A DNA stretch of 64,000 nucleotides from Natrinema sp. CBA1119 (lineage in GTDB: Archaea; Halobacteriota; Halobacteria; Halobacteriales; Natrialbaceae). The notes under the pieces were generated by a model. It had not been told where the DNA came from, did not search any database, and worked only from the letters and a program-made list of their open reading frames with translations. Location of the stretch: NCBI RefSeq assembly GCF_002572525.1, contig NZ_PDBS01000001.1, positions 1,798,001 through 1,862,000 of the forward strand. The letters are read 5' to 3'. The position numbers were made by a program, and so were the translations under genes. Position 1 is the first letter of the stretch. Each line of letters opens with the position of its first letter. Below are positions 8,740 to 59,704 of the stretch, piece after piece.

Positions 8740-8813
<74 letters not shown>

Positions 8814-31104: not shown

Positions 31105-31409
31105 CGGTGTCTCTGACGTAACATGGCCGAGAGCGCGGCTCGAGCGAACGCGAGAGTCGCGCGATCCGGGGGAGGGCAGGCGCTTCCCCTGTTTCGACCG
31201 CGAGCGAAGCCGTGCGCGGCGCGACGCGCCGCGAACAGTCGAACGGCCGAAGGCCGTGAGACGGGGTGAGCGAGCGGGCCGACGACTGACTCGGAACGAA
31301 GTGAGTGGAGAGGAGGGAGGAGTGCTTTTGATCGACCTTTTGCCGAGGGACGTCGCGCGTGCGGCAGCGACGCTGCCGCACGCGCGACAGACCGCAGAGC
31401 AAAAGGTCG
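31105..31409. repeat. intergenic cluster of triloop hairpins with a nested 75-bp palindrome
   Basis: The convergent gap between the dehydrogenase and engB holds CGCGGCGC-GAC-GCGCCGCG (31215-31233), ACGGCC-GAA-GGCCGT (31243-31257) and a 17-bp perfect stem GTCGCGCGTGCGGCAGC with GAC loop (31352-31388). The last is enclosed by GACCTTTTGC (31334-31343) and GCAAAAGGTC (31399-31408). No ORF is convincing. Confidence 0.75.
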
Positions 31410-43164: not shown

Positions 43165-43833
43165 CTAGAGCCACTTCACGCCGACGTCGTGCATCTCCTC
43201 GTTGTACTTCGCGATGTTGATGACCAGCGGCGTGACGCTCTCGACTTCGGCCGCGTTGGCCAGCGGTCCGGCCTCAAGCGCGCGCAAGCCGTCGATCTCG
43301 TTCGCGATCGACAGGACGGTTGCCGCGGCGTCCGAGTCATCGGCGACGACGAGCGTGTCGAGCCCGAGGTCGTTGTCGAGGTTCGACAGCGCGTCGGCCG
43401 CGAGGTTGTGGAACGCGCCGACGACCGGCACCTCGTCGGGGGCCCGCTGTGCGACGAGTTCGGTGACGCTGCCGGCGTCCGGCGGGTGGTAGTGCAGGCC
43501 GTCCTCGTCGCCCTGCATGCCGACCGCGGGAGTGATCAGAATCGAGTCCGCGTCGAGGCTGTCGGCGACCGCTTCGACGGTGTCGCCGACGTAGTACGGC
43601 GGGACGCTGAGAATGACGACGTCGGCTCGATCGGCCGCCATCTCGTTGCCAAAGCCCTTGATATCGGCGTCGGCACCGCGCGCCTCGAGTTCGTCTTCGT
43701 ATTCCGCGACCGCGTCGCGAGCCTTCTCGGGATCCCTCGAGCCGATGAGGATCTCGTGGTCCGTATCCCGGGCAAACCGCAGTGCGAGCCCTTCGCCGAT
43801 GTCGCCGGTGCCGCCGAGCAGTGCAATTCGCAT
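43165..43833 (-). CDS. npdG: NADPH-dependent F420 reductase
   Basis: A 222-residue F420H2:NADP oxidoreductase. The NADP-binding motif LLGGTGDIGEGLALRFA, ILIGSRDPEKA and the later GAFHNLAADAL (with VESVTPLVINIAKYN at the end) are the family signatures. It reduces F420 with NADPH or the reverse and pairs functionally with cofE and the Mer-like enzyme at 20.7-22.4 kb. ATG 43833 is used. Confidence 0.93.
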   Translation of the reverse strand: MRIALLGGTGDIGEGLALRFARDTDHEILIGSRDPEKARDAVAEYEDELEARGADADIKGFGNEMAADRADVVILSVPPYYVGDTVEAVADSLDADSILITPAVGMQGDEDGLHYHPPDAGSVTELVAQRAPDEVPVVGAFHNLAADALSNLDNDLGLDTLVVADDSDAAATVLSIANEIDGLRALEAGPLANAAEVESVTPLVINIAKYNEEMHDVGVKWL

Positions 43834-44381
43834 ACGCACCTCTCGGGAGGGCACCCGAATAAAAGGGCCGGGGATCGGCCGATATCGCCGGGTTCTCGGA
43901 CGGAAACTTCCACCCGGACCCGTTTCAACGCGATCGACAGACTCGACCAAATCCGCGAGAGGGGAGTCGAAAACGTTCCGTCGAACGAGCTCGATTCGTC
44001 GGTGGTCTGAACGCGACGGAGAAGATCGTCTCGAGAGAGACCGCGAGTCAACGAGAACGCGAACGCACTGCTCGCGCTGCTCGCTCTGGCTTCTAGGAGG
44101 GTCACACCCTCCCTAACCGACTCGCTCACTCACTTCCCTCGTTCGCTCATCCGCATGAAGACGCTTTGCGTCTTCCAAGCCTTCGTTCACTGCGTCTGCT
44201 CACGGGTGCGAAGCACCCGTTCGCATGGTATGCGGGACCGTCGGTCCCGCACTATTCACGAAGACCTCGCACGACATCGACCAGCGATTCACCCGTCGTT
44301 CATCGCTGGACAGCGCGCGCCACCGCATCGAACTCCCTCGTCGTAACGGCGGTGGAACGCGCAGTCTGACAGGAACCCGTC
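43834..44381. repeat. intergenic run of short perfect hairpins with three-base loops
   Basis: The 550-base gap contains GGAGGGT-CAC-ACCCTCC (44096-44112), GAAGACGC-TTT-GCGTCTTC (44157-44175), ACGGGTGC-GAA-GCACCCGT (44202-44220), CGCAT-GGT-ATGCG (44222-44234) and TGCGGGACC-GTC-GGTCCCGCA (44231-44251). The last two share bases, so only one can form at a time. No ORF here is convincing. Confidence 0.75.
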
Positions 44382-44639
44382 TCAGGGCGCGTCGTCTTCG
44401 TTCGGGTTCATCGCCGCGCCCAGCCCGCCGTCGTAGGCGTCGCGCTCGGTCACCTCGCGGATCCGCTGCTCGAGTCGCCCCTCGAGTTCCTGCCGCCGCT
44501 GCTCGTCCACGTCGGCGTTGGTCCCCAGGTCCCGCAGGTCGTGTCGTGCCGTTCGAAGGACGGAGACGGCCTCCTCGGTCTCGAGGTCGTCCGCGCGGTC
44601 GAGTGCGCGCTCGACGTCCGCGAGCGTGGTCTCGGTCAT
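44382..44639 (-). CDS. small acidic conserved protein (DUF7553-like)
   Basis: The 85-residue product starts MTETTLADVERALDRADDL. It is all helical and acidic, with a predicted coiled coil through DEQRRQELEGRLEQRIREVTERD, and no enzymatic motif. DUF7553 is suggested from memory only. It is divergent from the glycerophosphodiesterase gene. Function unknown. Confidence 0.65.
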   Translation of the reverse strand: MTETTLADVERALDRADDLETEEAVSVLRTARHDLRDLGTNADVDEQRRQELEGRLEQRIREVTERDAYDGGLGAAMNPNEDDAP

Positions 44640-55059: not shown

Positions 55060-55373
55060 GGCCGAGGTTCGATGTAGTTTTCGCTGCCGAATCCAAACCG
55101 TCTTTGGAGCGACGGCGGTAGGACCGCGTGGCCGATGACGAAGCACCCGCTCCGAGCCGGACTCGGCATCCGGTGGTGACGAGCCCTATGAGTGCCGAGG
55201 CTACCACTTTCACATGCTCGATGGCTATTCTATGAATCGATCTTCAACGATCGAGTAGGAATACTCACCTCAGCCAAACCCAGCCAGAAGACTTCATTCC
55301 AGACTGGTCTGCCAGATACTGCCTTTTTACGCTTTCAGGGCTCTGGACTCCGTACCAGTTACAGAGAGGTCAG
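55060..55373. other. A/T-richer gap before the multi-PAS kinase
   Basis: About 310 bases without a supported gene or hairpin. The base composition falls at about 55.2 kb, coinciding with the edge of the kinase gene. Confidence 0.5.
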
Positions 55374-58921: not shown

Positions 58922-59704
58922 TCAAAACCGAAAGCGGTCGAGATCCTCCGTGAGAGGAGTCGCTTCGGTGCGATATTTCGTATAGACAGCTTCGGCCCAC
59001 TCGCGTGCGGTTTGTGAATCGGTATCGACGTACGTGCGCAACAGACCCGTCTCATCGTCGTAGATGCCGACTCCGATCCGGTCGTCACAGAGCGTCAGTC
59101 CGAACGGGATGTCATCGTGGATCCAAAACGTCAGATTTCCGCTTTCGATGACTGAGCGTGCCCGTTCCGGGTTCGACGTAAGGACCTCCTCGAGTACCGC
59201 CAACGGATAGACGGCCTCCGTTTCCATCCCGGCGTTGATGCGGTCGGACAACTCGTCTAGGTGCAGCGGGTTGATGGTCGCTGGGTCGAGCCCCCGCAAT
59301 GTCTCGGTCGTTTTCACCAGCGACATGAACCGATTCACCGGGCGGTAGGGATCCCCGGGCGCAACCGTCGTCACGGTTGCGCCCGTGAACGCCGCGATAT
59401 CGATGTCGATGTCGTGAGCGGCCGCAACCTGGAGGACGGGGGCGAGTTCCGACGCGGCCTCGAGAGTCGACTGAAATTCGGCGACCTCCGCAGCGGTTAC
59501 CTCACCGAACGGCGTGAGGACGAACTCGCCGTCGATGCGTTCGATCAGGCCGCTGTCCCGGAGCGATCGGGTGAACCGGTGGACGGTCGACCGAGAGACA
59601 TCCAGGCGTTCTTCTAACTCTCGTCGATCTATCCCACCCTTCTCACGTAACGCGTCGAGCACCGGCTTTTGCCGGACGATTTCGATGAGTCCCTCGGCAT
59701 CCAT
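58922..59704 (-). CDS. HTH transcriptional regulator (DUF1724-like)
   Basis: A 260-residue regulator. Residues 12-60 form a winged helix (KPVLDALREKGGIDRRELEERLDVSRSTVHRFTRSLRDSGLIERIDGEFVLTPFG). Residues 75-260 resemble the DUF1724 ligand domain of archaeal regulators (PVLQVAAAHDIDIDIAAFTGATVTTVAPGDPYRPVNRF, then HDDIPFGLTLCDDRIGVGIYDDETGLLRTYVDT). This layout is common in haloarchaea; the signal is unknown. Confidence 0.85.
   Translation of the reverse strand: MDAEGLIEIVRQKPVLDALREKGGIDRRELEERLDVSRSTVHRFTRSLRDSGLIERIDGEFVLTPFGEVTAAEVAEFQSTLEAASELAPVLQVAAAHDIDIDIAAFTGATVTTVAPGDPYRPVNRFMSLVKTTETLRGLDPATINPLHLDELSDRINAGMETEAVYPLAVLEEVLTSNPERARSVIESGNLTFWIHDDIPFGLTLCDDRIGVGIYDDETGLLRTYVDTDSQTAREWAEAVYTKYRTEATPLTEDLDRFRF

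Follow-up and report, generated by a model that had tools for sequence, protein, structure and literature searches.

The intergenic region between npdG and a small protein gene of Natrinema sp. CBA1119 contains four hairpins with loops of only three nucleotides, all of them within 156 nt (44096-44251). Such a run could be a string of DNA cruciforms, a structured RNA or an array of REP-like repeats, and the question raised by this locus is which of these it is. Positions refer to the window, that is, the whole stretch of 64,000 nt that was analysed. Both flanking genes are on the minus strand, and Pfam and NCBIfam searches with the 85-aa product of the smaller one gave no match.

The hairpin cluster and the element that contains it

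The four stems (7, 8, 8 and 9 bp in hairpins 1 to 4, respectively) are all present and perfect, as the original prediction had described, and its claim that they are clustered beyond what unselected sequence gives is borne out: in 30 dinucleotide-preserving shuffles of the whole window, the maximum number of triloop hairpins with stems of at least 7 bp was two per 156 nt. The window is hairpin-rich in general, with 26 such triloop stems against 9.5 expected, and no second cluster of this kind was found elsewhere in its 64,000 nt. Other long perfect hairpins outside the matches described below include a 17-bp stem with a triloop (31352-31388) and a 13-bp stem with a tetraloop (59356-59385). Rfam matches in the window correspond to an sR-tMet C/D RNA (55130-55202, plus strand) and a tRNA (8740-8813, minus strand).

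Although clustered, the hairpins are not a free-standing array, and the unit is larger than the run first noticed. Hairpins 2 to 4 lie inside one copy of a dispersed element, here called E1 (Table 1), whereas hairpin 1 overlaps the end of this copy and is unique to it; in the other copies compared, no pairing was found upstream of CCACRCCCTCCCC. Hairpins 3 and 4 form one joint cassette of 60 bp, nested in a module (module D) which carries hairpin 2; this module is split by the cassette in the window copy and uninterrupted in others, such as L028. The covariance model R1 recovers the window copy on the minus strand in two halves, 44322-44256 (E 1.8e-7) and 44177-44102 (E 1.1e-7), because the insert splits it.

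Table 1. Features of the window copy of E1 and of its flanking genes
Feature	Position	Strand	Basis or remark
E1 window copy	44102..44322	-	RNA-like strand runs from 44322 to 44102; DNA homology to dozens of copies
P1 5' strand, CGCGCG	44314..44319	-	Partner strand at 44268-44273; covariation of P1 seen across the class
P1 3' strand, CGTGCG then AGG	44268..44273	-	One G.U pair in the window copy
P2 hairpin, CCAGCGAT (44281-44288) with ATCGCTGG (44302-44309)	44281..44309	-	Sequence; P2 covaries in A1
Double-hairpin cassette (DHC), 60 bp, hairpins 3 and 4	44195..44254	-	Same cassette in many E1 copies
hpC (hairpin 3), ACGGGTGC-GAA-GCACCCGT as plus-strand letters	44202..44220	-	Sequence
hpB (hairpin 4), TGCGGGACC-GTC-GGTCCCGCA as plus-strand letters	44231..44251	-	Sequence
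Module D, part 1, with hpD (hairpin 2) at 44157-44175	44153..44194	-	Flanked by TCATCC and CTCGCGC in many copies
Module D, part 2, TTCACGAAGA on the plus strand	44255..44264	-	Comparison with uninterrupted copies
GGATGA linker (44147-44152) and P3 arm (44123-44146)	44123..44152	-	Model R1 alignment
Conserved 3' core, here AGTCGGTTAGGGAGGGTGTGA; class consensus AATCGGYTGGGGAGGGYGTGG	44102..44122	-	
Hairpin 1, GGAGGGT-CAC-ACCCTCC	44096..44112	.	Overlaps the core; absent from other copies compared
npdG, NADPH-dependent F420 reductase, flanking gene	43165..43833	-	TIGR01915, E 1e-77
Small protein gene, 85 aa, other flank	44382..44639	-	tblastx: beside npdG in congeners examined

Distribution and genomic context

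DNA searches with the region give dozens of matches within the CBA1119 genome itself and in most congeners. These matches are modular, with the left end, the hairpin modules and the right end recurring in differing combinations. The E1 core CCACRCCCTCCCCARCCGATT, allowing up to two mismatches, occurs 86 times in Natrinema sp. CBA1119 and between 0 and 98 times in its congeners (98 in G008, 0 in four species); the reversed pattern, used as control, gave 0 occurrences. With the covariance model (E<=1e-4), E1 was detected in 147 of the 292 class genomes sampled, representing 45 of 77 genera, and among the matches listed all belong to one order. The 20 genomes with E1 in a phylum-wide sample of 295 are all from this same order. 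Named genera with the core include Natrinema, Haloterrigena, Natronococcus, Haladaptatus, Halorussus, Halococcus and Halopiger. IMG/VR yielded no exact match to the core, and six haloarchaeal plasmids showed partial E1 matches only.

The gene context was analysed in the CBA1119 genome using a simple codon-usage gene finder, so the figures are approximate. None of 54 copies overlaps a predicted gene. Among the 53 copies that were classified, the neighbouring genes are convergent in 23 cases and divergent in 6, and the flanking gene ends comprise 71 3' ends and 36 5' ends. The orientation of E1 with respect to tandem neighbouring genes is unbiased (11 same, 13 opposite). A dispersed, strictly intergenic and palindromic repeat is REP-like in its distribution, and to this extent the REP-like option of the original prediction was right.

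Divergent pairs of E1 copies, separated by about 100 bp, are frequent, and tail-to-tail arrangements also occur (G011, G020, G041, G004; L022). Outside Natrinema, a repeat GGGTGGGACTGAAAGGGGCCG...GGGGGCTTTC often follows directly on the 3' side (L113, L154, L158, L160, L177, L180 and others). A possible conserved 3' extension of E1, GGGACTGAAAGGGGC, was rejected, being present in only 36 of 233 copies; it appears to be a neighbouring repeat. In genus g43, E1 is a single-copy element, syntenic across several species (L385, L387, L390, L394-L397) and antisense between two cobalamin-synthesis-like genes, which in sequence resemble cbiG and cbiF.

Fold and strand signature

Base-length copies of E1 from many genera share, on the minus strand, the plan TGGCGCGYGC-[P2]-GYGCGAGGGATGAG-[P3]-AATCGGYTGGGGAGGGYGTGG. 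In 63 base-length sequences 92.0% of the pair cells are standard, compared with 76.3% after shuffling and 17-45% when the partners are slid, and double-change cells amount to 209 against 67.5, it being understood that the copies are not independent and that replacement of entire arms accounts for a large part of the covariation in them. The original prediction held that structure rather than sequence is conserved, which is correct for the arms and incorrect for the linkers, whose sequence is conserved across the class.

The helix P1 provides a strong indication of the strand that folds. When its three outer pairs are taken as anchors and the three inner ones are left free on both sides, the inner pairs of 270 copies include 512 Watson-Crick, 220 G.U (27%) and only 4 A.C pairs; this count replaces an initial tally (60 G.U to 1 A.C) partly biased by the choice of copies. 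The excess is alike in three data sets: Natrinema, other named genera and copies found by the model. A G.U pair on one strand is an A.C pair on the opposite one, so an excess of G.U indicates the folding strand, and the proportion in P1 therefore argues for selection on the minus strand of E1 as a single-stranded nucleic acid, most simply RNA. Nevertheless, G.T wobble is also tolerated in single-stranded DNA, which is the alternative reading of that strand. The short hairpins inside E1 show independent mismatches in a proportion of 36:10 for the minus strand (p=0.002 versus shuffled sequence). On the other hand, cassette stems have no strand bias (hpB, 19 G.T and 14 A.C; hpC, 5 and 5), so it seems that the cassettes behave simply as hairpins. 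Covariation and a one-strand G.U excess, both features of a structured RNA, are found in E1. Of the options raised originally, structured RNA is favoured over cruciforms by this single-strand signature of the minus strand, and the part of that option which separates RNA from single-stranded DNA is probable rather than observed.

Promoter-like sequences were also considered. In genus g5 a TATA-like box is located at -35 to -5 of the E1 5' end in 16 of 32 copies, and about one third of the copies have a second box farther upstream, with conserved sequence between the two (L411-L430, L402-L409). Since the spacing in g5 would put the start near or just inside P1, these boxes are suggestive only as E1 promoters. 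No such box was found in that interval in any of 72 Natrinema copies, nor in the other lineages outside g5. The minus-strand core GGYTGGGGAGGGYGTGG (44102-44122, as in all E1 cores) fits a two-tier G-quadruplex pattern with two variable bases in the loops; a G-quadruplex is possible, and the non-G positions of this core are fixed too.

Modular structure and the double-hairpin cassette

The lengths of E1 cluster near 136, 197, 253 and 310 nt and continue upwards, the steps of about 60 nt reflecting the insertion of double-hairpin modules into the arms. The commonest of them, of 60 bp, has the sequence TCTGCTCACGGGYGC-NNN-GCRCCCGTTCGCATGGT...CGGGACC-NNN-GGTCCCG...CTA, and all 42 cassettes associated with E1 are in the same orientation. 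Triloops are highly variable; about half have the form GNA or the complementary TNC, and these occur on both strands. Elements other than E1 carry the cassette too, namely about 30 near-identical IS605/PATE-like ones retrieved from genome G023 and members of another repeat family. The G023 elements (L017, L260-L288) start with TTAGCTGTAATTGAGGGCG, end with ...GGGTAGTTCAC and in all cases carry the cassette near the left end; the second family, also hairpin-rich, is of the form TTTTTGCG...CGCAAAAATCTCGACCAAAAA (L014, L016, L036, L038, L336).

Turnover and mobility

The npdG site shows how E1 varies between relatives. In most congeners there is a short gap without E1, whereas G006 has an E1 of reduced length, oriented as in the window, and G011 retains only a P2 remnant. 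The original prediction called for compensatory changes in the stems of this gap; the gap mostly lacks the element in congeners, whereas pairing is kept across E1 copies by changes on both sides, often by replacement of a whole arm. Arms are often replaced wholesale between species: among 36 groups of copies whose flanks are homologous on either side, an arm had frequently given way to an unrelated but fully paired one. Module exchange or ectopic conversion therefore accounts for some of the apparent compensation. Within genomes the best pair of copies is 91% identical and the median best identity is 81%, values which indicate that most copies are old and which do not show recent movement. Three syntenic regions of 400-460 kb (flank identity 88-94%) yielded no clean unoccupied site from which exact ends, or a target-site duplication, could be read. 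Dispersal and turnover, taken together, suggest that E1 is mobile.

Related to this, a transposase of the IS200/IS605 type (Y1, PF01797) was rejected as the driver of E1, since its gene counts do not track the number of E1 copies: there are 0 such genes in the E1-rich genomes G008, G021, G043, G004, G006 and G020, and 1-7 in the E1-free genomes G012, G017, G018 and G022. No recurring gene family was found beside E1 among 951 predicted neighbouring genes. A long autonomous form was also discarded: the cores without a nearby right end are decayed or variant copies, and none bearing a transposase was seen.

Comparison with known repeats and RNAs

The bacterial REP, BIME and REPIN elements, associated with RAYT transposases, are high-copy, extragenic, palindromic and mosaic, and their units are often paired (PMC3733652, PMC3116915, PMC8266576); GTAG and CGTC are the REP tags named in the title of PMC3733652. 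E1 resembles them in having many extragenic palindromic copies per genome, in its mosaic structure and in its frequent pairs. However, neither tag flanks the window hairpins hpB, hpC and hpD on either strand, the distribution of Y1/RAYT genes does not match that of E1 across genomes, and the unit is longer, with several helices, fixed linkers and a one-strand G.U signature.

The Haloquadratum PATEs are transposase-free haloarchaeal repeats with IS605-related ends, and SMR repeats have inverted terminal repeats, SMR-A being about 110 bp long and inserted in palindromes of PATE/IS605 elements (PMC3119063). Like PATEs and SMR-A, E1 is haloarchaeal and transposase-free, and it shares short hairpin DNA with IS605-type elements. 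It has neither IS605-related ends nor inverted terminal repeats, its ends differ from that of the G023 elements, it is spread over many genera, and the E1-rich genomes lack the Y1 transposase. The cassette, which does occur within IS605/PATE-like elements, is a 60-bp sequence without an inverted terminal repeat. In contrast to a MITE, the ends of the base element, TGGCGCG and GGYGTGG, are not inverted repeats of each other.

Mitochondrial double-hairpin elements and GC clusters are also short, dispersed, mobile-looking hairpin elements; their likeness to E1 is one of description, the genomes being different, and we know of no larger structured element in them. HEARO and the omega RNAs of IscB-TnpB elements are multi-copy structured RNAs which can be dispersed by mobile elements, but no IscB/TnpB-type gene recurs beside E1 among the 951 predicted neighbours. 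In scans of the window and of two well-conserved copies, no Rfam 15 family matched E1 above its gathering threshold, with only weak chance matches, and a search for tRNA or tmRNA identity was negative. Searches of the open-access literature for the conserved motifs retrieved unrelated papers only; E1 is apparently undescribed, an earlier description beyond that literature being possible.

Nature of the element

The explanation favoured here, with somewhat more confidence than an even balance would give, is that E1 is a class-wide, multi-copy, non-autonomous repeat whose selected product would be a structured single strand with the minus-strand sequence; an RNA of at least about 110 nt is its most likely form. 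The closing helix P1 holds the variable hairpin P2, after which come the fixed linker GAGGGATGAG, the variable P3 arm and a 3' segment that is fixed and rich in G. E1 behaves as a dispersed repeat that is not autonomous and that lands or survives between genes only; its loops accept the modules of about 60 nt as extra stems, the fixed linkers staying in place, and copies exchange arms. The strand would be RNA rather than single-stranded DNA, it would be transcribed, and a putative trans-acting factor recognising the fixed linkers would spread it. Going further, E1 could be a novel, class-wide RNA family of haloarchaea, propagated via its own structured RNA in a SINE-like or RNA-guided manner, while growing by the insertion of 60-nt double-hairpin modules and exchanging arms, a proposal that is tentative and rather doubtful.

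A selfish REP/MITE-like element made of DNA only, in which a transposase (HUH or other) would recognise hairpins on one single strand and no RNA would be made, is improbable to about the same degree. It would account for a dispersed, strictly intergenic, palindromic and modular repeat, for the many perfect, strand-neutral Watson-Crick stems of the cassettes, for the GNA/TNC loops on both strands and for the cassette within IS605/PATE-like elements; however, the Y1 counts and the G.U content of inner P1, a heavy wobble load for a DNA duplex, argue against it. It is unlikely that E1 is a host element at gene ends, either a bidirectional terminator or a protector of mRNA ends between convergent genes. 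The excess of convergent neighbours and of flanking 3' ends fits such a role, but most congeners lack E1 at the orthologous npdG position and some lack it altogether, the g43 copy is antisense between its neighbours, and a bidirectional terminator would not be expected to show so strong a signature on one strand. A cruciform array conserved as such at the npdG locus, the other option raised at the outset, is very improbable in spite of its perfect stems and short loops, given that the hairpins all belong to a single copy of a repeat and that most relatives have an empty or decayed locus.

Implications

E1 is a real dispersed element, REP-like in distribution and RNA-like in its conserved fold. 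The intergenic regions of haloarchaea would then hold an unannotated family of repeats or RNAs with up to about 100 copies per genome, an abundance that is not explained by the transposase tested (Y1). From the point of view of annotation, many of the perfect hairpins in these genomes are not locus-specific signals. If the product is RNA, E1 would be a natural system in which the addition and swapping of hairpin modules in a structured RNA may be followed, and the agent that mobilises it could represent a new mechanism of mobility.
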